Part shown: positions 2,362-50,839 of the stretch, piece by piece
Numbering within the stretch: the first letter of the stretch is position 1
How the letters are laid out: each line of letters begins with the position of its first letter
Assembly (NCBI GenBank): GCA_021234155.1
Contig: JAJEKV010000001.1
Coordinates: forward strand, 16,313,491-16,377,490
Direction of reading: 5' to 3'
DNA: 64,000 nt
Source: Isoetes taiwanensis
Taxonomy: Eukaryota > Streptophyta > Lycopodiopsida > Isoetales > Isoetaceae
Notes under the pieces: model-generated
Databases searched by the model: none
What the model was told of the DNA's origin: nothing
What the model saw: only the letters and a program-made list of their open reading frames with translations
Made by a program: the position numbers and the translations under genes

Positions 2362-2784
2362 GCCAGGGCCTGATTACTGTCTTTTTGCCCTAAAATTATG
2401 GCACGCAATCCTTTCGCCGCTTCCCTGCTTTCCTCCGCTTCCATTTCTTTTCTCTCTTTCCGCAGGTCCCCTTGTGGCTCTGCCCTTCCTTTACTTAGCT
2501 TAGATTTCTCTTCTTAGCTTAGATTTCTTTCTTTTCGCAGGTCGGGCAAAAGCAGAGATCAAAGCAAAAGCAGCAGAGATCCGGCGAAAGCAACAGAGAT
2601 TCAAGCAGCAGAGATCCAAGCAGAGGCCCTATTTTTCGATTCTTCCTTCAAACGGCTCTGCTTTACTTTGGCCTTCGATTCTTCCTTCAAAGGCCTTATT
2701 CCTTCGATTCTGCCTTCTTCCCTTCAACGATTCAAACTTGCTCTGCTTTGCTTCGTTTTCTACTGTTCGTAATCAGGCCCTGGC
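2362..2784. repeat. Perfect 16-bp inverted repeat bounding 423 bp
   Basis: GCCAGGGCCTGATTAC at 2362-2377 is repeated exactly in inverse orientation at 2769-2784. CAGGG-type ends are common in hAT elements, but I see no 8-bp duplication outside them. The interior has a tandem TTAGCTTAGATTTCT pair (about 2500-2530) and repeated AGCAGAGATC and TTCGATTCTTCCTTCAA motifs. Confidence 0.45.
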
Positions 2785-4796
2785 GTGTAATATATTATGT
2801 CCCATAATTCCACGGCTGGGAGGGGATGCACGCACAGTAGGGCTTCTTTCGGCGGCGGCCACAAGCCTCGGCCCGGGCACTTCAGCGGCTCAGGCTCGTC
2901 GCGCCTCTCTGGCGCTGGCGCCCGCTCGGCCGATTTTTCTAACCTCTTAGGCAAGGGCAATAAATCATTTTCAAAACCAGTGACAACAATTAACATCGTA
3001 ATGGAATGCAGCATTAATGATTAACTATTCAGAGTATGCTATTCATAACGAATAATCTGAGAACAAACAGAGTTATCTGCAGTATATTCAATATGAATAA
3101 ACCAAATATCCACCAGTTTTATCTCACAATCAAGCCATAATCTAACAGTAACGGAAATGCATCACAACAAGCTTGATAATAAACAAGAATCATATACATA
3201 GTTCAGATTTGCATAACAGAATAATGGATAGACTTATCTCTTAATAGCCACAACCAACAGCCATAAAATTATCAGATCTTCTGGTGACTCTCCATGGTTC
3301 TGCACTGGTCTGGTCGGATTTGCTTCCTCGAAATCTTCTGCTCTGATATACTTCTACTCTTCCTGCTCTCTAACAGAATAATGGTTGGCCTCCCTAAATC
3401 TGCTATGTTTGCACCTTATCTGGTCGGCCACTTCCTTTAAATGCTTCCTGCCTGGTTTGCCTCTTTCTCTGATCCATTCCTGCCCTTCCAGATCCGCTCG
3501 CCGCTCCTCCCTTCGTTCTCCTCCTTTCAACCGTAACCTGCTTTGCTGCCTTCATGCCTTTTCAATTCAAAAGGGGCTTTTGTTCTTAACCCTTAGATTC
3601 TAATAAATCTCCACCCTTGGTTTTATTTTAATAATGTCAAGGTAAGTGGATCACCATTCTTGTATCTTCTTGAACCATTCTTGTCAAGAATGACAAATCG
3701 CCCTCCAAAACCTGTAGAATCCAGTCTGCCTTACCTTGACGTAGTAGAAATGGCATGGGGTCAGCAAGAATGGCTTTCCCCATGCCATTCTACATAACAT
3801 CTCTTTCTTCAACCATTCAAACAATATAACCCCTACAAGGTTTATAACTTCAAATAACATCCCCACATGCTAATATTGCTAATATGACCCGTTTTGTAAA
3901 ACTTAGCATGGTAAGATCACATGGCATTGCTCCTTTGATCACGTTTTCACCCAAAATGCACAATTTTGAACAAATTATTCCTTCTACAGAGACCCGTCAG
4001 TATTGACTCTAGTGTATTGTTTGACTCCTAGGAAATACATCGTACTTTTTTGCTAACATCCATTAACTAGCACATTGCAATCCGAAATACCCGGTCTTCT
4101 CTTCCTAAGCTATACTATTCTCAGACCATGAACTCATATAATTTATTTGTTGCCCCATATAAATGGCTTGGTTGTAGTCTCCAAACTTATGCTGGAATTG
4201 CTAGCATATTATTAGATTGTTTATAGAAGACGTACTGGAATTATAAAGATGAAAAGTCTGCCTTTGAAGTGTTTTAAAATTACCTGCCTTATTGGACATG
4301 GGAATTGTGGTGGACATACTTGTTCCATCGGATTAAATTCTTGTTTCCTGATTCTCTAACCATCAAGATGGTTGATTGTAAATTTCTCAATCTTTTCAAA
4401 AACATCAAGCATCTTTTCAAAGCCATTATCTAGCTGTAGGATCTGCAACCTTTGCTAAAATTCTAGCATTGAGTGCATCTTTCACCTTTTTTTAAACACC
4501 AATAGCTTCATTCCCTGTCAAAAGTTGCAATAAAAAGATCCCAAATGCAAAGACATAATGCATGTGTGACAATATATTCAGAGTCCATAACATTGTGTCA
4601 CCAATTGTGTCCACTTTTGGAACCTGTCAGAGTACCTACAATTGTTACTTCAGAAATGGATATTGTTTTCTTGTTCTTTCTATCAAAGACAATTGAAAAG
4701 TTCAAATTAAAAGTCCAAAGCATGTTAATATTCAAGGTCAAGGTAAAGAAAGTACTAATGGAGGTGGAAATGAATGAATCCAATTTAACACTTACA
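2785..4796. other. No recognisable gene
   Basis: A GC-rich patch at 2800-2950 could encode short peptides on either strand, but none is recognisable. The remainder is AT-rich with only short frames. Confidence 0.4.
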
Positions 4797-6636: not shown

Positions 6637-8525
6637 TAGTTTTAATAAGATTTCGATTTCTGAGACTTTTATAGAAGTGGCCATTATTTATTAACTGAAT
6701 GACATAGATCAACTTATGCAAAACTCCAAAGACAAAAACTTTAAATTGCCTTAAAAATATTAACTTAGATGGAAGCTTTTGCCTAAATTTTGGAACAGAT
6801 GCATAGTATCCATACATTCATTGTGGAATGGGATTGCAACTGAAACCTTAACCTTATGGCAGATGAGCTTTTACTGATCTGGCTTCTACTTGAGACAATC
6901 TAGAATTGACCTTCCCCTTCTCCAAATTTCTATTTTGCCTATTTATATTTTCCATGCAGATGTTCAATGTGCTGCTGCAACTTTGCTATTTCCTGCACAA
7001 CAACAAAAGGAAGCATCATGAAAAAAAAAATATCCATTCTCAACTTGCAAAAAGATGGAACTATGGAAAATGCCTATTGGACCAATCACTGTATGCATGC
7101 ATTCTCAATGCCAAACTCAAATCCTGTGAGGGTGATAGGCTCTTGAAAGCACATGCAAAGTTTTCTCATAAGATAAAACCATATCTTTCTGGTTCTGTTA
7201 TAGAGTTGGGCTGCGTTGTCATCATCGCATCACAGCATATGATTCGATAAGTGCAGGCGCGGCCCCAAACTAGAAATAATAATAAAAAAAAGACTAAGAA
7301 CACATGCAGCAGCCAGCTCTTTTATTTACATAAGCTGAACAGAGTATAAGCAACAGACCAGAAGTTCATCTTCATGGTGCAAAAATTGTCTGTTTGATAT
7401 AGGCTAAACACTAGTTCAAACTTATTCAAGCCATCATGCTCTATTATGCTCTGTGATACATGAGAAGAGAAGTCTTGCCAGTTCTGAAAGGAGTTGCTAC
7501 TGCAATCCATATGCATGTGAGCACAACTTGGTGTCCCACAATAAATGGTCGTTCCAGCATCAATTTTACAATACATCATCCCCCTGTTTTTTTTAAGGGC
7601 AAGCCATCTCATAATTTAATTTAGAATTCCTTACTCTTGCCTCCTCATAATCATTGGGCATCTCAACAAAATATTAGCATAATCAATGCCTCAGCCAACT
7701 TATTATTCAAAATGACGATTAATCAGCAAGTTGCAGCTTCCAATTTAAATGCCAAGAAATTCTGGCAAAATTTAGTGCAACCAAGCAACAATGAGCCCAA
7801 ACAACACTGCCAAGGATGCGCAACACCCCTCTTCTCAGCATTTAATATGGGAAAGCAGGCAAACAAATGAGCACATGCAAGATTTAAAGTAATGGATGGC
7901 ACGTGATATAAACAATGCATGCACTTACCTAGGATACCAGAAAGTATAAAGATGAAGACATGCAGTAAGAATACTATACCATTTTTGTAACTTTTGCCCA
8001 TGATGTTCTTTCCAGAGATGAAAATGTAATTGTTCTCCTTTCCAAATTGATTTCCTAGCAGTTGGCATCAAACAGAAATACTTGCTCAGAAGAGAGCATC
8101 CATTTAACAGAAAACCAAACTTACGTTGCAATCTAAACAAAATGTAAGCTAGAAACACCGACTCTAAGGAGCAAACAAATGATGGCAACTACTGTGCGAA
8201 TGGTCGCAGAGATGCAAAACCTTCTTGTGCTGGCTTCAGGGCAGTAGGTTCCCCGATGCCTTTTTGGGGTTTTTTTTTTGGTTTTTTTTGGGGAAATGTT
8301 GCCTGCCGCTGAAGAGGGCGGTGGTTTTGTGCCCTGCTTCTACATGGATGGCCGGATCTGGTTGTCTGGTTTTGGCATGTCTGTGAGTAGCTACCTGGCA
8401 GTGAAATCGTCCTGCTCCCAGGTCGTTGTGGCAAATTCCCTCCGAGTTTGTGGGAGGCTGGCCGCGTGGCCCTGCCTTCTGGGAAGCTGTTTTGGGTCTT
8501 TAATTGTGCATGCTGGTGCAGCGGG
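6637..8525. other. No recognisable gene; G/T-rich tract before the HUH locus
   Basis: 6637-8190 has only short frames, including a 96-codon minus-strand frame at 7322-7612 that I do not recognise. A G/T-rich tract at 8260-8295 precedes an abrupt rise in GC and may mark the left edge of the next element. Confidence 0.4.
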
Positions 8526-8583
8526 ATGGCGAGCAGCAGCAGGTCTGCGGAGGGAAGCAATCCATCTGTTGGGGCATCTGCAG
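8526..8583 (+). CDS. Possible first coding exon of the HUH/Rep-like gene
   Basis: An ATG in favourable context (GCGGGATGGCG) opens a 19-codon Ser/Ala-rich frame that ends at a strong donor, CAG|GTAACT, at 8584. An acceptor at 8751 (TTGTAG) or 8694 (GAGCAG) would join it in phase to the large frame downstream, skipping the weakly coding 8604-8694 or 8604-8751 stretch. A 168-bp intron would match the second predicted intron (172 bp). This is inference from splice signals; the simpler alternative is initiation at the ATG at 8604. Confidence 0.4.
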
Positions 8584-8603
8584 GTAACTTGTAAATTCCC
8601 TTC

Positions 8604-10082
8604 ATGTTGAAACGATTGGCCAGAGAGTGGAGAGGAGGGAACGGTTCCCTTGATGAGGAGGGCAGGCCTCCTGAAAGCAGTAAAGCTGGAGCAGCCAGGA
8701 AGAATTCCGTGTCCCTTATGTGCGGCCCTGCTTTGCTGGATAGTGTTGTAGGTTGTCCCCAGGTTGCCTCTTATCCGCTTTTCCACCGTAGTACCTATGT
8801 AGAAGTTCCCTCTGAGGAGCTCCACCTGAGCGCAGAAAGGGCCCAGCATAATCTGAATGTGCTTGCTGAGGCCTGTAACGCTGCTGTGCCAACAAGGAAG
8901 AGAGGCAGACCACGCAAGGAGGCGGCAATTGTTATCCATGAGCAGAATCAGAGGGACGAGATGAAGAGAAGGAAACAGCAGGAGAGAGATGAGAAGAAGA
9001 AGGAGAGAGAGCAGAGGCAGAAGGAGAAAAAGGAGGCCCGTGAGCTTGCAAAGAGGGAGAAAGAGGAGAAGAGATCTTCGAGGAGACAAAAGGGGCAAGA
9101 GGGTGATGATAGGAGTAATGTTTTGGACGTGAGCGTAACAGTCACAATTAGTGGGTCGGATATAGCAGAGGACCATTACCTCAGGGTTTGCAAATTTCTT
9201 GATTCAGATTGCATAGCTGGTATGGTGGCAGTTGAGCGGGGATCGGAGCTGGATCACCTGCATTTGCAATGTGTGTTCCGTGTCCCTATGACAACTCCTG
9301 CAGCTGTCAATGTGCGCCTCAGGAATGCTCTGGACTGGACTAGCCATCGTCCACCAGGAGGTGTCATCATGTGCAAGGCATTGAAAGATACCCGCCTGCA
9401 CTGCTTCGAAGGAATGCTAGGATACTGCTTAAAAGACAAAGGGAAGCTACATTTTAGGAGTCATATGAAAGATGTCACTGCAGACCAGCTAGAACGTGGC
9501 AAGAATTTGTATGCGCTTTATGGCGCAGGAGAGATCAAGCATTGTGTCGTGCTAGATAACAGAAACCTTTTTGGTCGTGCTGGACACTTTGTCATGTACC
9601 ATGGTAGACGGCAGCGCACTCCAAGCTTATGCTACACTATTGCACGTATGCTCCGTACTGGAAAGTTTGTCCTCTCAAGTGCATGGGTGCTGCCATGGAA
9701 TTCTGCCCGGATTAGTTATCATAGGGTGGAGGCTGCTTGGAGATTGACGCTAGATCCCAACCATGCTTCCATCAAGGATGTTCGGTGTGTTATTTATGGC
9801 CTCCCTCCAGGTGAAGAACCCATAGAGAAGGTTGGCAAGAGACGGCGCAGATTCTGGGATGATGCATTAGATTGCAAGGAATTAGACAGACTTGACGCGA
9901 TGCTGGAGGAAGAGAGCAGCACTGGGGAAGGGGACGATGCAGTTGATGTTGTAGATTATCCTACAGATGAGGAATACCGTGAGGAGACCGCAGCCTTCAT
10001 ACCTCCTGTAGACCCGAACCAGTATTGCTTGGCAGATTACATCCCCTTAGACGTAGAGGACCATGCTTTCCAGATTGGATAG
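8604..10082 (+). CDS. HUH (Rep-like) endonuclease of a Replitron-like transposon
   Basis: The 492-codon frame has four visible parts. Residues 98-105 form an AT-hook (RKRGRPRK). Residues about 112-165 are a highly charged Lys/Glu/Arg segment, probably coiled coil. Residues 174-281 look like a rolling-circle nuclease core: a beta-strand motif-1-like VSVTVTIS, then ELDHLHLQ with the His-x-His pair at 218 and 220, then GYCLKDKGK with the candidate nucleophile Tyr274 and Lys277. A conserved-looking basic region (282-410) and an acidic tail follow. HUH enzymes nick single-stranded DNA and form a 5'-phosphotyrosine link. No Walker A motif is present, so no helicase, which separates it from Helitrons. 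The locus is GC-richer than its flanks. A lone-domain HUH transposon (Replitron-like) fits best; an endogenised CRESS-type Rep is the alternative. Confidence 0.75.
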   Translation: MLKRLAREWRGGNGSLDEEGRPPESSKAGAARKNSVSLMCGPALLDSVVGCPQVASYPLFHRSTYVEVPSEELHLSAERAQHNLNVLAEACNAAVPTRKRGRPRKEAAIVIHEQNQRDEMKRRKQQERDEKKKEREQRQKEKKEARELAKREKEEKRSSRRQKGQEGDDRSNVLDVSVTVTISGSDIAEDHYLRVCKFLDSDCIAGMVAVERGSELDHLHLQCVFRVPMTTPAAVNVRLRNALDWTSHRPPGGVIMCKALKDTRLHCFEGMLGYCLKDKGKLHFRSHMKDVTADQLERGKNLYALYGAGEIKHCVVLDNRNLFGRAGHFVMYHGRRQRTPSLCYTIARMLRTGKFVLSSAWVLPWNSARISYHRVEAAWRLTLDPNHASIKDVRCVIYGLPPGEEPIEKVGKRRRRFWDDALDCKELDRLDAMLEEESSTGEGDDAVDVVDYPTDEEYREETAAFIPPVDPNQYCLADYIPLDVEDHAFQIG

Positions 10083-10150
10083 TATGCTTCTTGCAGTTTG
10101 AATTGCCTGTGTTGCATGAATGGATTAATTGAGTCGTCTTCTTCTTGTAG

Positions 10151-10539
10151 GTCCCACTGGAAATGTAGCAGCGCGTGAGGAGGTGGAAGATGGTTGCCCC
10201 GCAGCACCATTCTCCGCTTTCATCTCCTTGGATCCTGATTCCCTAGAGGTGGGCGCTGCTGGAGAAAACAATCCTCCACACGAGGGGCCTTTTTTGGACA
10301 TCGATTGGTTGAAGGAGCAGACTTGGAGATCTGTGCGTACGCTGTCGCTCGCCTTGGCCAACATAGTTGATGTGTTGGAAGAGGCCTTGACGGCGATGGA
10401 TGATCCTGAGATCGCTGTTGACCAACGGAACAGAAGAGTTTTCAGGGCAGAAGTGAATCACGTGAGGGCGATGCTGCTGTCCAAGCTCCGCCAGTTACAG
10501 GAGCTTGCTTCAAGGCACCCCCGCACCATGAGAGCTTGA
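10151..10539 (+). CDS. Probable last exon of the HUH/Rep-like gene
   Basis: This open frame of about 129 codons (extending back to 10129 if unspliced) starts right after a pyrimidine-rich tract and acceptor TTCTTCTTCTTGTAG. A donor GTGAGG at 9979 inside the upstream frame would join it in phase, completing an Arg codon across the junction and removing a 172-bp intron. The encoded segment is acidic and Pro-rich first, then helical with many Leu, Glu and Arg residues, ending near 10539. I recognise no domain in it. Without splicing, the upstream protein instead ends at 10082 with a different tail of about 33 residues, so two isoforms are possible. Function is unknown; dimerisation or DNA binding is plausible for a helical tail. 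Confidence 0.55.
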
Positions 10540-10723
10540 TAGAAAGAGCTTCTCTTAGTGTTTATATATATGTGTATAGCGGAAGTTTCTATGTTGCTGT
10601 GAATGGTTTTGACGGTTCAGTCGTGTAGCTGAAGTTGTTGGCAAATGGAGTGTACATGAGCTGTTCATGTACTGTTTCTCTGTGTAATGTAATGCTGTTA
10701 TAATCTGACGTGCATATAAAGTC

Positions 10724-10771
10724 ATGGGTCTCGATTAGGATGGGTCTCGATTAGGATGGGTCTCGATTGGG
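10724..10771. repeat. Three tandem 16-bp repeats downstream of the HUH gene
   Basis: ATGGGTCTCGATTAGG occurs at 10724-10739 and 10740-10755, and once more with one change at 10756-10771. About 185 bp after the last stop codon, where an element end or origin-like iteron could lie. No equivalent is visible at the left side. Confidence 0.85.
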
Positions 10772-12844
10772 GCAGAAAGAAATGAACTAAAATTTAAGGG
10801 CGGAGCTCTTCTTATTTATAGACAAAGGAAAAGGAAACAACTTACAGCTTATTCAACCATGTTCTGGCTGTCTGCGATCCTACCACCTGTCTGCACATAT
10901 CCATACAGCTGTTTGCCGGAAACAGATCCACCACAAATTTGTGACAGATGGCTGGAGCACCAAGGCGCTGCACAAAAACTCGGCAGGCTGGCCTGACCTA
11001 GCAGAATCATGGCGGCGTCTATGGCGCCGAATAGCTCCAATTGGCGCCGGATTAGCGAACGCAGTGCTCCATTGTCGGCAGCGTAGATTTTTTCAGGTTT
11101 TTTTTTTTTTTGCTATTTTTTTTCCCACTCGGGAATCAAAGAGGCATCAAGGCATCGAATCTTGGTGTATATAAATTATATAAGAGTAGATAAGTGCCCA
11201 ATACCGAGATCAAAATTAGTAACATCTCATATTGTTAACTGATATTATTCTGCCATGGATCGGTGTGTGCTTATAACTTTATAAAAACTTGAGACCTTGC
11301 CTGAATCAGCAATAAGGCTACCGACATGTACGGCAATAACATGATCCTGGTCTTAAGCCTTATCTGGGTTTATGGTTGCTTGGGATTGTTCCTACGCAAG
11401 AACACGTCATTTATAAATGAATATAACGGAATTAAGTATTTTAAGCCTAGTGACGGGATCGAGGAGATGCATCCGACGCTGGAGTGATCTTAGATTTTCG
11501 CTCATGGAAGAAAATGGGTGAAAACTAGTAAATAAGAATGCTAATTTTTAAACAGAAAAAAAAAAAGTTATGAAAAAAGAAAGAGAGAGTCGATTACAAT
11601 TTTTTTCTTCGATAATAGTGAGATTAGTATCCTCAACATCACATATTCGTTACTAAGTTTGAGATGCTAATTCTTACTATAACATTGCCACAGCTCTGCA
11701 ATGCAGATCAATTTTAATATACCTATCATTGCTGTCGATATAGATTATTGACTTGCAAGAAATATGCTTAGGTAGAAACAAAACAAAGATAGTGCCGAAC
11801 AATCAAGAAAAACCTTGAATAGGCGATGCACATTTACTTGCCCGAAAGAATAATCCGATGTTATGATGCCCTTGAAGAAAGAATGACTGTCATCTGACAG
11901 CCAATTGTTAACTGATTGTCAAGGAAAAAATCAACAGAAATATCTGTTGTGCCATAGCTCTGGCAACTCGAAGAAGAAGCTAGAAAGCTACAAAAGATGG
12001 AAGAGGGGGTAGAAGAAGACAGAGGCGGCGAAAACTCAAGCTACTTCTCAATCCCCCCCAAAACTATTTTTTTTTTCCATAAACATGTGTCGCCGGTATA
12101 TTAAAATAAGGTAGTGGCTGGAAGCGGTGTAATACAATTACATAAGTTTGGATAAAACGCATGTTGTAATTACTTGCATGCAACAGTAATATTAATTTCG
12201 CATTACTTAAAAAAAGTGTAATTTGGTTGTAATATACACAATGTCCTTTTTGGACGATATACTAACAAGACATTGGTCTTATTATTGGTTTATGATTACG
12301 ATTAAATTATTTTAACCATGCTCTCATCATAAATATATGTCCTTGCAATAAACTAAAAACTTATTTTTTACATTAGCCATGTTCGTCTTATGGCCTTCAC
12401 TAGGTAGGGTGAGTGAGTGGAAAACCACAAAAAAAGTAATGATCATAACATATACAAGACATTTAACGAGGGAGCAAGTGGTTGCTTGAAAGTTCCGCGT
12501 CAAGTTGAAATGGTGGAAAAGTGAAGGAAAGTGGTGCAAAGACGTGTGTCCCTCCATTTCCTTGGGGAATCCTCTACATCATTCAAGATTCCATCAAGAT
12601 TCTCCTATTATTCCTCTCCATTTTCTTAATTTTCTTTCAAATTCAATAAGATTGCATTGTGATTCTAACATATTCCTGCTGTTGAGACTCCTTCAAGGTC
12701 CTTCCAGGGTTCCCTCGAGTTTCTTTAAATTCTAATAGGTTCTATTTCCTTTGATTCTGCAAGATTCCTATAGGCTCCTTGAAATTTCATTAAATTCGTT
12801 AGGATTCCTTCATAACTCTCCAAGATTTCTGACAAATATCTTAG
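10772..12844. other. No recognisable gene; possible retroposon 3' end
   Basis: A 63-codon minus-strand frame at 10849-11040 is unassigned. A T-tract at 11099-11112 is followed by AT-rich DNA. Another T-tract near 12066-12076, followed by TATATTAAA-like sequence, resembles the poly(A) end of a minus-strand retroposon, but no body is recognisable. Confidence 0.35.
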
Positions 12845-17204: not shown

Positions 17205-17699
17205 TCACCCCTCGTCGCGCGCATTGAAGTCTCCAAGCAACATGACCTTGCCCAATTGTTCAGACCGGCTGTATGTCATCATATAGATCGACATAGGGCT
17301 CCCGCCCATCCACATCCAAGTGCGTGTGGTAAAAGTTGCTCTCAAAGATGTGGGAAGTAGCAAGCCGCCACAAAGAGAGGGCTGCCATCGCTGTTCGCGC
17401 TTTCGCACCTACGTATCTGTTGTGCCCTATCCGCCTTGCACGGGGGAGACCGATTGGGCCAAGGCTGCCCGGGTAGTAACACGCAATTCCTCCGTGTCCT
17501 CGCTTCCGGTGCACTCATTGAAGACGAGTAGCCCGGTATCCCGCAAATCGTAGCCTGTGACCAAAGATGTTCCCATGTTTCCATGAGGAAGATAAGGTCC
17601 ATGTCCATGGCGGCATGCATTGAAATCGCCCCTTCTCGCCATGGAAAGCCACGGCAATTCCAGATACCACGCTGAGGCACGATCCCTAGTTAGTGGCAT
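17205..17699 (-). pseudogene. LINE C apurinic-type endonuclease domain, frameshifted
   Basis: Three minus-strand frames together give the AP-like endonuclease order: GIWNCRGFPWREG, then MDLIFLMETWE (catalytic Glu region), GIPGYSSS, a middle segment shared between frames, and LLGDFNARDEG (the GDFN motif) near 17210-17230. This domain nicks target DNA to prime reverse transcription in LINEs. At least two frameshifts break it, so it is not functional. It lies 5' of the RT, as expected. Confidence 0.75.
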
Positions 17700-17970
17700 G
17701 CATGCGCCACTTCAGTCCGGTGGTAGTGGTGGTCCCGTGGGGAGCGGAAGATGTGGATGCCTCTTGTTGGGCCCCCTCGAGAAGACTTCGAGGGGCCGGA
17801 GTGCCCCCGATTCCCTGTTTGGCTGCCTCAATTCCCGCATCCTTCCCTCGGACCAGCCCCGCTGCCCCTCCATGTTCAAGGGTAGCCCCTCGACTTTGGC
17901 CAGACTCACGCCTTCGGTCTCTTGCCGCGGCTGGGGTCAAGTCCCTGGCCAACGTCTGCATCCGTCCCCT

Positions 17971-18990
17971 TCAACTTCCGCCCCCGACGCAGATGGCCAC
18001 CCGCCTCGCACGCCTCTCAACCGTGAAGATGACCACCCGCTGGGCGATCGTCCGGAATTCCATGACGACTTCGCCTTTCCAATGGTCACGTGTCTTTGGG
18101 AACATCATCCGGTCCAAGATCCGTATGCAGGTCTGGAAGTGAGATGTTCCCCGACTCCTCCGTCCGCCCTCGCGACTACCACATTCGGCGCTCCTGGCCT
18201 CTGTTCCCGAGTTCGGGTGGGGCCGCACTGTGTTTGGTTGAGGTGGGTGAGGCATAGGGCCGGGTACGGGCCGGGGTGATGGCGGCCCGGCGTGATCCGG
18301 GATGTGTCCGGCATGTGTTCCGTGTTGACGCCCCGTAGGTTGGTGGGTTCGCGGGTTGGTATGTTCTTTGGTCGCGGGTTTCGCTGTTCTCGAGTCCGAG
18401 GTCGCCTCTTGCGGATCGTTGTCATGTCTTGCCATCTCCCCGCTGCAATGGCGAGTTGCTCATGTGCTCGCATGGAGGCCCTTGCCTTTGCCGGGCAACG
18501 CCAAGCTCCCCGAAAGCTCCCGATCTTTCGTATAGCAATCCTTACTCCGGCGAGCGCCAGCTTCGCCTCGCTAGCTTCCGAGCAGCCTGGAATCCTGTCT
18601 CACAGTGGCGGCCTCCTCGCAACCTCGGACAGGAGGGCGCCTGTGCTCCTCGTGGTCGGGCCTTGGCCTCCTCAACTCGCCTCGATCCGATCGAGGTGGT
18701 TACGAGTGTCTCCTGCTCTACTCGGTTCACATCTGCCCCCCGGCCCCCATATAGCTGCCAACACGGTGTCTACACGCCCCTCATATCTGCAAAGCTCCTG
18801 GTTGGTATTGCCGTTGTCAAATTGTAGCAAGTGGATGCTATCATCTCGCTTTTGCCGTCGCATTTCGACTCCAATTCTGCGGATTCGCCGTTTTTCGCAC
18901 CAATCGCTGCGCAACATCCAAGATGTTATGTTCTCCACCTCTGTCGGGAGGCCTGCAAGGCGTGCACTATTGGCCTCAACCCTCGCCTGG
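17971..18990 (-). pseudogene. LINE C ORF1-like region
   Basis: Minus-strand frames here are basic, Pro/Thr-rich (17971-18473) and, further 5', helical with RIQARVEANSARLAGL and RRIRRIGVEMRRQKR (within 18672-18990). They occupy the ORF1 position. No zinc knuckle is seen, so the assignment rests on position and composition. Confidence 0.45.
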
Positions 18991-18994
18991 ATGC

Positions 18995-19715
18995 GGCTCC
19001 AAGGTTCGACTGGCGGATTGCCTGTATGGCCCGCCTGTCGGGTCGACTGATAGTAGTATCGGGGTCCCTCAGGGATGCCCTCTCTTCCCAACATTCTTTA
19101 GACTCCACATTGATCAGCTCGAGCACTGGCTTGCCGACAATGATGGGAATGGGATTCAACTATTGCACCAGATCGCCAGATAGCTAATATGTGCAGATGA
19201 TGTGGATCTTCTAGCCTACATCTTGCAGACATGCAATGCCACCTTGATGCCTTGGACACATTCTGCCAGGCAACAGACATGGACGTCAACCTGGCCAAGA
19301 CCAAGGTGGTCCTCATATCATCATCGCGCCTGCTAAGGATCCCTTCCATCAGTTACCACGGACAAAATGTATAGGTGGCACGAAGTTACAAGTACCTGGG
19401 AGTGGAGTTTCTTTCTGCCATATACTGGGACACTTCCATTCGGCTGTGGATGATAGCACGTTGGAATGCACTATATGCAATGCAGAACAACATCCACATA
19501 GCGGAGCTGTATGACTGGACTCATCAATCGCACATGTTCAGGGTCTTGGTGGAGCCTTTCCTTTTGTACAGAGTTGAAGTCTGAGGGTCAGTGGTGTCCC
19601 TCGCCGCCTGGAATGAATTGGAGCACGTGCAAAAAGCCTTCTTGACACAGGCATCTGGGGTGAAGTCTACAGTCCCGTATCAAATCCTGTTGCAGGAGAC
19701 AGGCAGAGCGCCAAG
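18995..19715 (+). mobile_element. LINE copy D, continuation of copy B
   Basis: Plus-strand RT palm resumes with SIGVPQGCPLFPTFFRLHID, a stop, then LICADDVDLL (YADD changed to CADD), followed by ARSYKYLGVEFLS, MFRVLVEPFLLYRVEV and VPYQILLQETG. It begins at essentially the residue where copy B breaks off, which marks copy C as a nested insertion. It ends near 19715 without a tail. Confidence 0.75.
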
Positions 19716-45336: not shown

Positions 45337-46467
45337 CTAGTATGGCCCAGCTGTCTCATTGAACAGGGGCATTGTGGTTCCTGCCCAGTGCCATGTGATT
45401 ACATTCTGGTCATAAGTCATTTCATCCTCTTTCATGCCCGTGAGGACCATGTGCCACGAGATGCTGCTGTACAAGTTTGTTATTGTGAGTTGCTGCCATA
45501 TTTTTATTGCTTTCTTCCATATGCTTTGTGCTTGTTGGCATAACCAGAAAACATGTTTTTGAGTTGCAGGTTCTCCACACCACTTGCATGCATAATATGT
45601 TGGGGGCTGACCCCTTGTATAAATTCTGGGGATTGCACTTTTGTTTGCCATCAGCCAAGTTAAGTATTTGACTTTTGCTTGGCAGACATTGGACCAGATA
45701 AGCTTTAGCAATCTTGCTCTTTTGATGTCTCGTTCTATTCCCATGGTTATAGCTTTCTGAAATAACTTTGATGTTTCATTTTTCTGTACAGCTTGCACGC
45801 CTATCTTGGGGGTGAAGGAGAAGAAATTGAACTGCCCTGTACTGCCATATTTCCAATACCACATTAGGGGGTCCCAGTCGAGCTCTTCAGCATTGCAATT
45901 TCTGAATATCATTAGATTGACAGGTTGGTCTTTTTCCACCTCTGGATCCAAGGTCATGTCTTTTCCTTTAAGGTCCACCACTCTTATCTCTTTGCATTGT
46001 ACTAGTTTTTTATCCTGAATGTCTGCTACAATTTTTTGCTGAATGTTTCCTCTTTCATTGGCAGTGAGTTTATATCCCCTATTCTCTATGGCTGAAGGTT
46101 TGAACCAGACCTCTCTTTCATTGTTGCTATTAGTTGCTGGGATCCAATGCCATTTCTCTTGTACAATCATATTCTGGTGAGTTAACCCTGCCCAACCATC
46201 TTTTATTGCCTGCAATAAAATTTCAACATCACTTACAATTCTTTTCCTTGTACATGGTCCTAAGACTTGCAGAATCTTTTGCAAAGTGGCTTCTCTTGTT
46301 GGCATGATGATCCTGTCAAGATCCTCCACCACCCTGATACCCCTTTCATGTAGCCATCTCCAGCCTAGCTTGTATCTGTCTTCCCCTAGTTGCTGGTCCC
46401 TAAACTGGATTCTGGAGTTATGGTAGAGGAGCTGTTTCTTGAATTGATCAGGTGTAATCTGCTCCAA
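45337..46467 (-). pseudogene. LINE L ORF2 connection and zinc-finger region
   Basis: A 376-codon minus-strand frame. Residues 1-110 (LGWRWLHERGIRVVEDL, AIKDGW) form the RT-to-finger connection. Near residues 265-315 it reads LIWSNVCQAKVKYLTWLMAN, then CKWCGEPATQKHVFWLC, which supplies the C-x2-C and H-x4-C ligands of zf-RVT, preceded by the usual W-x-x-x-x-x-x-KV. This region probably assists RNA binding in LINE ORF2 proteins. It is long for a decayed copy, suggesting fairly recent loss of activity. Confidence 0.8.
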
Positions 46468-46925: not shown

Positions 46926-47312
46926 TTAGCCCATTTTGCAAGGTGATTTTTTATCAGTGCCACCATATGCGTTTCCTGGTCTGAATTTGTTGATATCAGG
47001 TCCGACTTGAAACCCCAGATATCTCACTGTTTCATGTTGCTCCAGCCACTTAAATCCCCTGTCAATTCCCCAGTTGGTCCTTTGCTTGCTAGAGACCCAG
47101 ATGCCATTTAATTTCCCCCAGTTGATTGCTGCCCCTAATGCTAAACAAAAGGTGGAGAGACAGGTTTCCATTTTATCCAAGTTTTCCTGCGAGCCATTAA
47201 TGAACAATGTTGTGTCATCAACAAATTCACACTCCCTAAGATCCATGTCTTGCAAAGCCAGATCTCTGAGGTATTCATTGTGGTTGGAGGTCCAGGCCCT
47301 GGGGTCCATCAT
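46926..47312 (-). pseudogene. LINE L RT catalytic fragment with FVDD box
   Basis: Reads ECEFVDDTTLFINGS (the YADD-equivalent catalytic box, FVDD here), then LGAAINWGKLNGIWV and VRYLGFQVG, the RT thumb motifs. It starts at a frameshift from the preceding frame, overlapping it by 38 bp. The double Asp is retained. Confidence 0.85.
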
Positions 47313-48528
47313 TGCTGGCTAAATAATATCCTAAGGCTTCTGCCATAAGGATAAATAGGGCTGGAGCTAGGGGGTGGCCTTGTCGTACAGATCTATGTAA
47401 TTGAATTTGTCTGCCCAAGCACCCATTGATACAAGTTCTGCTAGTAGTGCCCCTATATAACATGGAAGCCATTGAAATAAAATGGTCTGAGATGCCCAGT
47501 TTAGACATAACTTTCTCCATGAAAAACCAGTCAGTTCTATCATATGCTTTCTCGAAATCTAGTAGAATGATTGCCAAGTCTTTATTAGATTCCATGGCCC
47601 ACTCTTGAGCAAGCTTTAGGGTAGCAATATTCTCAAAGATAAGTCTGCCCTTCACAAATCTAGTTTGAGGGCTTCTTATGATGGTGGGGAGAATGTCCCT
47701 TAGTCTCATAGAGAGGGTTTTTGCAATGATCTTGTATAAGGTGCACATCATAGAGATGGGGCGCCAGTTTTTCAGATGTGTTAGGTCCCCCTTCTTTGGC
47801 ACTAGGGAAATACACCCCTCAAGGAAGTCTTGCTCCCATCTGCCTTGTTCAATTGCATTGTTCCAAGACTGAAGAATGATCCGGCCTATCCAATCCCAAC
47901 TTTTCAGAAAAAAAGAGGGGGGGGGGGGAATGCCATCCAATCCTGGGCTTTTCTCCTCATTTAATTCTTTCAATGCTTTCTTGAGCTCCTCTGTTGTAAA
48001 GGGCTTGTTCAGAGCTGTATTCATGTCATCACTTAACAATTTGGGGACCTCATCCAATACTTTTTTTATTGCTCCCAGTCTGTTTGAATCAATAGGAATA
48101 GCCTGAAAGACTTTTGAGAAGTAATTATCAACCAAGTCTTGCATTTCATTCTGTTGTGTGACCACTTGCATGTTTAAGTTTTTAAGCCCCAAAATAGGGG
48201 GAGTTGCTGATTTTCCTTTCAGAGCCAAATAGTGGGCATGGGATAATTTCCTCTCATTTAGGAGCCATGAGACATTGCTTTTTTTGAAGTAGTTGAGGAT
48301 TTTCTCTTGCTCCACCTTTGAGATTTCATCTTTAATCCTTTCCATTTGTCCTCTTGCCCATTCATTACTCCTGTCCCTTTCAACGATCATTTTTGCAGCT
48401 GCAAGGTTATTACTTAATGCAATTTCTTTTCCAAACAGCTTTTTTTTACAATTGCTTGCATTTGCCTGGCCTTTTGGGAGATCCATTTCATCAATCCTGC
48501 TAATCCCTGCTCCTGGTTTTGTTCCCAA
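47275..48528 (-). pseudogene. LINE L reverse transcriptase, finger and palm
   Basis: A 417-codon minus-strand frame. Residues 80-100 KKSNVSWLLNERKLSHAHY, 175-205 FTTEELKKALKELNEEKSPG followed by LDGIP, 238-275 CISLVPKKGDLTHLKNWRPI then SMMCTLYKIIAK, 286-296 SPQTRFVKGR, 318-331 ILLDFEKAYDR (first catalytic Asp) and 379-395 SVRQGHPLAPALF. Canonical plant L1 has RQGCPLSP; Cys to His and Ser to Ala are changes here. A proline run after LDGI coincides with a C/G homopolymer (about 47926), suggesting slippage. The frame ends before the catalytic FVDD, which is in the next frame. Confidence 0.9.
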
Positions 48529-49241: not shown

Positions 49242-50839
49242 CTACTTCTGAGGGTTTGAGGTTTGAACCATAAGAATCCTGCTTTTGGGTCCCCCTCTGG
49301 GGTTTCTTTCAGCAATCAGTACCATGAAGTTAATGTTTTCTTCAATGCTTTCAATAGTTCTCAACTTAAATGAGACTCGAGGCCATCCAGTGAGACTTAA
49401 CATGTTAATGGCAATCTCTTCTCTTTCCTTGGTATCTTGTGGGAGCATAACTATGGGAAACTCACCTGAGTCTCTGTCAGCTAGCCAGTGCTTTTTCCCC
49501 TTGTAATACCATTCATGTGCAACTGCCAGAGTATATTGAGTCATACTCATCTGATTCACTTTGTTTGTTGCTAAATTTTGCAGGTTGAGCCCATCCTTAT
49601 CTGTTGGATTGATGTCAGCATTTGTGGCTCTGCAATTGGTTTGGGTAGTACTAGCTCCTTCTCTGTTTGTTTGCTGGTCAGGGGCATTAGTTGCAGCAAC
49701 TCCCATTATAACGTTGTTGAGATCCTGGACTTTAGGTGTGGCTCCTTCCTTCTGCACTTTATTGAATTCCATGATAAGGTCTGTTGCAGTGTTTTCCTTA
49801 GGGCCCATGTCTTTCACCTGCTGCTTCTCCTTTTGAACCCATTGTTTGATAATTCTGGGTTTTTTTTGCTCTTCTTTGAGAGGCTTCCAGAGAGGTTTCC
49901 CAACCATGTTGATTTTGTTCCTGGTGTTGTTCCTCCCTTGCCAAGTTCTTTGTTGCATATTCTCCATTACTTTGAACTCCCTTTTTGTTAGAATATTTCG
50001 TGGTATTCTGAGCTTTGTTGCTATCATTCCACATGCAGGAGTTGACTTAGTCTGTGATCCCAATTTGGCCTTAAGGTTTGGACAGTCCCTTTTCAAGTGT
50101 CCATCTTCTTTGCAGTAGTTGCATGATATGCCTAAATTCAGTACCTCAATATTCATGATTCTTCCAGCTACTGCAATTGCTTGAGGGATTTTACCTGGGT
50201 TATCAATTAGGATTGTGACTTTTGCTTTGCCTCTTATTCCTTGTTCCCCAATATTGTCTTCTCTAAAACTACTGATAGCCCTTGCCATTACACTTGGAAT
50301 TCTTAGTTCTCCCGGGATGTTGGACAATAAAATTTGAACCTCCTGTTCTCCTTTCAGCAGTTTTTCCCCCTTTTGAGGGTCAAAGTTTTCAATCCAAGGA
50401 AGGGTGGTGGCTCTGTTTCCTTTTGAATCTATAAGCCTTTTCTTGTCCAACACACTCCTGACTTCTTTGAAACAATTTCGAACCATGCTGAGCTTAAGGA
50501 GGCACACCTGATACCTGTAACTTTTGACATCTGTGCATCATCCATAGAGGTTATCTGTACTTCATTTACTTTGGCTTTTTTCTTTCTTTCAATGCTCCCT
50601 TTTCTCATAACATGTTCAATGTCCTGTTGTGGCAGGGGTGTCCAGCTTGGTTTTGTTCCATCCAATTTGATCACACTTGCTCTAGCTGAACAACTAGCAG
50701 GTTGATCTTTCTTTGGAGTATTTCGTTGGGCAGACCTCAAGTCTTGATTAATGTTGGCATCCACTTGTTGTGACATGGCAAAACTCTGCTTTAGTAGGAG
50801 TATTTTGGACCTGATATACATGGCTTGGTCCTGCTCCAT
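49242..50839 (-). pseudogene. LINE L ORF1, zinc-knuckle half
   Basis: Two overlapping minus-strand frames (50839-50429, then 50507-49242) give a gag-like protein. The second reads ILLSNIPGELRIPSVMARAI, AKVTILIDNPGKIPQAIAVA, then LGISCNYCKEDGHLKRDCPN, a C-x2-C-x4-H-x4-C zinc knuckle near residues 125-140, followed by a Gln/Asn/Lys-rich low-complexity tail. ORF1 proteins of plant L1 elements bind element RNA. A frameshift near 50480 splits it. Confidence 0.85.

Follow-up and report, generated by a model that had tools for sequence, protein, structure and literature searches.

HUH nuclease chemistry is common to Helitrons and the Reps of CRESS viruses, and in the Reps of CRESS-DNA viruses and plasmids an HxH motif is combined with a single tyrosine in the YxxK arrangement. 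Replitrons, of which few members have been described so far, are said in the founding paper on the group to occur in non-seed plants at high copy number and to insert by a copy-and-paste route in Chlamydomonas. The sections of a review considered here (PMC10741241) list Replitrons in liverworts, mosses, lycophytes and ferns and attribute to them a length of 0.9–4 kb, target duplications of 2–8 bp and direct terminal repeats of 5–11 bp; the Helitrons of the same source encode a protein with Rep and helicase parts and insert between A and T, leaving the target unduplicated. An earlier note on the DNA analyzed here stated that a land-plant member with a DNA-binding N-terminus would be notable. 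Occurrence in a land plant as such finds no support as a notable feature, and a claim to the first land-plant member would fail, given that these sections already report lycophyte Replitrons (PMC10741241).

The locus analyzed here lies in a stretch of 64,000 nucleotides of the lycophyte Isoetes taiwanensis (hereafter, the window; Table 1). We identify it, with high confidence, as a well-preserved copy of a Replitron, i.e., a transposon of eukaryotes with a single-tyrosine HUH nuclease (a predicted activity) as its transposase and no helicase.

Table 1. Features of the element, and LINE-like frames in the window
Feature	Position in window	Strand	Basis
Target duplication GGGCA(G), left copy	8239..8244	+	single in unoccupied sites
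Whole element, 2526 bp	8244..10769	+	flanks adjacent in L031; four unoccupied target copies
5' terminal motif GTAGGTTCCCCGATG	8244..8258	+	genome pattern count
Predicted exon 1 of second transcript, 58 nt, ends CAG/GTAACT (donor after CAG)	8526..8583	+	aligned across families
HUH nuclease ORF, 492 aa	8604..10082	+	open, complete; inside predicted intron 8584-10150
AT-hook-like motif, residues 97-106	8892..8921	+	Pfam score under cut-off
Replitron HUH domain, residues 177-303	9132..9512	+	Pfam match
His218	9255-9257	+	HUH domain residue
His220	9261-9263	+	HUH domain residue
Tyr274	9423-9425	+	HUH domain residue
Lys277	9432-9434	+	HUH domain residue
Predicted exon 3, C-terminal helical region of second protein, acceptor TTGTAG/	10151..10539	+	conserved frame 3' of HUH stop
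3' terminal tandem repeats, ATGGGTCTCGATT(AGG) x3, final copy ends CGATT	10724..10768	+	similar 3' ends in other families
Target duplication GGGCA(G), right copy	10770..10775	+	single in unoccupied sites
LINE-like frame, zf-RVT	45340-46467	-	Pfam
LINE-like frame, RVT_1	47278-48528	-	Pfam
LINE-like frame, zf-CCHC	49245-50507	-	Pfam

The nuclease gene and its relatives

The long frame that the earlier note had described is present and its residue numbering is right: the 492-aa product carries RKRGRPRK at residues 98–105, a charged stretch at about 108–170, HLHLQ with His218 and His220, and YCLK with Tyr274 and Lys277. The span given for it, 8526 to 10771, holds only in part, because 8526 is an upstream in-frame ATG whose frame runs into TAA at 8592, whereas 10771 falls within 2 bases of the 3' end of the element and is not the end of the ORF. 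The proposal of a Replitron-type HUH enzyme in a plant is borne out by the Pfam profile Replitron_HUH (PF21859), which matches the ORF product with an E-value of 7.6e-20 and 72 bits (cut-off 28.5) over profile positions 1–127 of 128. Likewise as claimed, there is no Walker A motif (GxxxxGK[ST]) in the 492-aa protein and no helicase family among its five Pfam matches at E <= 1, the four non-Replitron matches all being under their cut-offs; viral Rep families gave no match at that level either. The AT-hook stands as a peptide, its Pfam score of 13.7 bits falling under the cut-off of 17.4.

The single-sequence AlphaFold2 model of the product has a mean pLDDT of 40.6, too poor for fold assignment, and places Tyr274 in a strand; in the PDB, the protein sequence drew 8 weak matches and a six-row alignment 1, none of them HUH by name, and the PHROGs profile search gave a single chance match (E 0.39). 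The statement that this is the only long uninterrupted transposase-type frame in the window is partly right, as LINE-like frames of 376–421 aa are also there. Elsewhere in the window, the G+C-rich segment 14000–19200 (52–58%) contains long frames at 17620–18279 and 18292–19050 that match no Pfam family.

The gene belongs to a large family. At least 150 Replitron_HUH domains over the cut-off are present in the host genome (2165 first-look candidates, of which 150 were scored, all of them passing), compared with none in 14 control genomes, and a protein search of the host genome with the window ORF yielded 99 matching stretches. His218, His220, Tyr274 and Lys277 are all kept in 17 of the 22 frames that span the site, the exceptions being L009, L015, L018, L020 and L024 (L-numbers denote the loci analyzed). 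The closest sister copy, L009, is 93% identical at the DNA level over 2480 bases, contains a frameshift and carries Thr at the position of Tyr274. For the HUH ORF, dS is unsaturated in 11 of 66 pairs, whose dN/dS ranges from 0.074 to 0.560, including a value of 0.317 for the window copy and L009 that takes in the out-of-frame tail of the latter; in the other 55 pairs dS is saturated and dN is 0.129–0.446. For exon 3 (see below), the ratio was measurable in 46 of 66 pairs among 12 copies, ranging from 0.129 to 0.865 and lying below 0.4 in 43. Judging from these substitution ratios, both coding parts evolve under purifying selection.

Outside the host, the only relative found in bacterial and archaeal genomes is 33% identical and lies on a 5-kb contig of a Cyanobium MAG (L035, 1945–2481). 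The split frames on this contig suggest introns and an algal source, so that it is probably an algal contaminant. Within the Isoetes genome, the main copy in L021 is accompanied by a Replitron HUH frame of greater divergence (45% identical; 3–614), which represents a second lineage, and L026 (1353–7690) holds three head-to-tail Replitron copies, 94.8% alike, in which the 3' repeat end abuts the next 5' end with no duplication between them. The L026 copies are candidate rolling-circle multimers. Two further head-to-tail junctions were considered in the same light and rejected: in L011, exon 3 is joined to a point inside the 5' region, which fits an ordinary rearrangement, and the junction in L013 fits one copy inserted in the CGA/TT end of another.

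A predicted second protein

The ATG at 8526 probably lies in exon 1 of a separate transcript. The sequence that starts there can be aligned with ATGCCGAGCAGCCAAGG... of other families, and a good donor closes it. The length of this exon is 1 modulo 3 in the window copy and in 13 of the 14 other copies tabulated (an indel accounts for L016), and the one leftover base fits the acceptor phase of exon 3; the donor counts are partly by construction, GGTA having been sought after the ATG, whereas the agreement in phase is not. Among nine copies tried, which were chosen for having both exons, the join of exon 1 to exon 3 is open in eight, giving 148 aa in the window copy and 141–154 aa overall; the predicted splice fails in L016, and in L012 the C-terminus is shifted. 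Exon 1 is not recognisable in the more distant copies L024 and L025.

The exon 3 frame has at least 150 matches in the host genome (150 scored out of 843 candidates). No Pfam family scored over its cut-off against the predicted protein. In a single-sequence model, the exon 3 part forms two long helices, 50–82 and 91–121, with a mean pLDDT of 71.3 that rises to about 80–91 within the helices. Taken at the sequence level, the element thus appears to encode a second protein, with the whole nuclease gene lying in its intron.

It is unlikely, to our judgment, that the flanking exons are to be read otherwise, with exon 3 being a separate downstream gene or being spliced in another way to the HUH protein rather than to exon 1. 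Many copies have a GTATGA-like sequence that overlaps the HUH stop, and the exon 1 frame is open toward the HUH ORF and in frame with it in several families (L010, L011, L013, L019, L022, L027 and L028), whereas a stop closely follows the donor, ahead of the HUH ATG, in the window copy, L009, L015 and L017, and an indel brings one about in L023; moreover, the model was built from genomic sequence rather than from transcripts. Splicing at the GTATGA-like site, however, would keep the stop codon and produce the wrong phase, its GT is missing in 2 of 15 aligned copies (L012 and L022), and the phases of exons 1 and 3 agree.

Termini, target sites and mobility

The 15-base 5' pattern GTAGGTTYCCCRATG occurs at 187 places in the genome, compared with 4 for the reversed pattern. 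In all 29 junctions of the fetched loci, which are partly non-independent owing to a flank made common by later duplication in L012/L048 and in two junctions of L040, the base before the 5' end is A. This A belongs to the target in the empty site of the window copy and in the duplications of L011, L018, L023 and L049, and, on the basis of these five copies, looks like a target requirement. A G shared by the target and the first base of the element leaves two placements for the 5' boundary of the window copy, 8244 or 8245, and lets the duplication be read as GGGCA or GGGCAG.

At the 3' end, the copies typically show a T-rich stretch followed by tandem units ending in CGATT or CGATTAGG, with three units in the window copy. 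Long terminal inverted repeats are absent, none of the six inverted pairs in the element being located at both ends. Terminal direct repeats are weak: 5' GTAGG and 3' TTAGG share no more than TAGG, and AGG is missing from the last of the 3' repeats in the window copy. A 3' hairpin with a predicted stem at 10652–10672 was rejected as a candidate terminator, its z of -1.0 being not unusual. In the sister copy L009, the 3' subterminal segment (2600–3010) is repeated several times, suggesting that 3' ends grow by local duplication. A palindrome, TCATTGGGAATTCCCAATGA, near the 3' end of L010 (about 2735–2800, minus strand) repeats part of the 5' terminus of the same copy, TTCCCAATGA; L011 and L021 are similar.

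The unoccupied state of the insertion site can be read directly. The window flanks 7700–8244 (99.8% over 545 bases) and 10770–11196 (98.4% over 427) adjoin in L031, on another contig. Farther left, over 6742–8244, the likeness to L031 goes down to 94.4%, with gaps, indicating that L031 carries a paralog from a host repeat and not necessarily an allele. Four places in the genome (L031 and L036–L038) match the 45 bases of flank and nothing of the element itself; each is uninterrupted across the insertion point and has one GGGCAG, against the two that surround the element. The insertion target is a repeated host sequence.

Target duplications were assessed in the 12 copies with both ends placed by eye. 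Five have an exact duplication, of 5–6 bp in the window copy, 6–7 in L049, 10–11 in L011, 16–19 in L023 and 20 in L018; in L010 it is imperfect (about 23–26 bp) with repetitive flanks, and none longer than 4 bp was seen in the remaining six (L009, L012, L016, L019, L021 and L045). The left flank of L009 is repetitive, and no clean empty site was seen for this copy. For the window copy, automated flank matching returned an internal chance repeat (10 bp), and the real duplication was read from the empty site. The flank-match control was contaminated by homology between elements and also gave a few matches of 16 bp or more, so that it is their location next to the 3' repeats that supports the longest duplications.

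Four unoccupied target copies together with a target duplication indicate a mobile element and not a host gene. The earlier note's view of an intact-looking transposon gene accordingly holds, the ORF being open, complete, multi-copy and mobile, and the search that it proposed for copies and empty sites turned up both, the homologs not being single-copy host genes. Domestication from a Replitron, with the gene retained for a role in the cell instead of for transposition, would agree with an intact frame under purifying selection but is very improbable for a copy that sits between element ends, inside a target duplication, and has hundreds of relatives with the same ends. That the locus derives from a Helitron or a CRESS-virus Rep that lost its helicase we consider hardly credible, despite the shared HUH chemistry, as Replitron_HUH is the best and sole significant family, no inspected copy has a helicase part, the target is duplicated with no insertion at an AT site, and viral contigs searched for relatives yielded 14 pattern matches, none of them confirmed.

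Proposed mechanism and comparison with known systems

By analogy with the family, the Replitron protein would bind the element through its AT-hook and basic coil, and the His-x-His metal site and Tyr274 would introduce a single-strand nick between A and GTAGG at the 5' end, with the nuclease becoming covalently joined to the DNA. The strand ending at the CGATT repeats would then be transferred to a target nicked after A, the copy being made by host DNA synthesis, and two target nicks at variable spacing would give rise to the target duplication. The predicted second protein, from whose message the HUH ORF would be spliced out, might act as an accessory factor or regulator.

We give roughly even chances to a combined proposal in which an unspliced or retained-intron message would yield the HUH nuclease, and exon 1–exon 3 splicing a helical-hairpin protein of about 140–150 aa, so that splicing would decide between the enzyme and its partner or repressor, and in which insertion would be strict for the preceding A, with target duplications freely variable up to 20 bp. 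Such variability would point to two independent target nicks rather than a fixed stagger, and the wide spread of lengths would limit the ways in which the second target strand can be cut. With its intact nuclease, exact ends, empty site and duplication, the copy supplies an enzyme and a substrate (A/GTAGG and CGATT ends) that can be put to the test, and through the spliced second protein, if real, one could investigate the control that an HUH transposon exerts over its copying.

The element resembles CRESS-DNA virus and plasmid Reps in combining HxH with a single Tyr in the YxxK arrangement, and differs from them in that its protein has neither an SF3 helicase nor Walker A. With Helitrons it shares the HUH nuclease and the absence of terminal inverted repeats, but it lacks a helicase or Walker A, has a target duplication and other ends, and is inserted in GGGCAG. 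The likeness to Replitrons is as follows: the HUH domain covers nearly the full profile, there is no helicase and there are no long inverted repeats, many copies occur in a seed-free plant host, and both the length of 2526 bp and the window duplication of 5–6 bp lie within the 0.9–4 kb and 2–8 bp given in the sections of the review considered here (PMC10741241). Measured against the same sections, the direct terminal repeats of the window element are weak, its relatives L011, L018 and L023 have duplications of 10–20 bp instead of 2–8 bp (PMC10741241), and a second spliced protein is predicted, a contrast that is drawn with the description in that review. The predicted second protein and the long target duplications are two features by which the element may be a variant Replitron.
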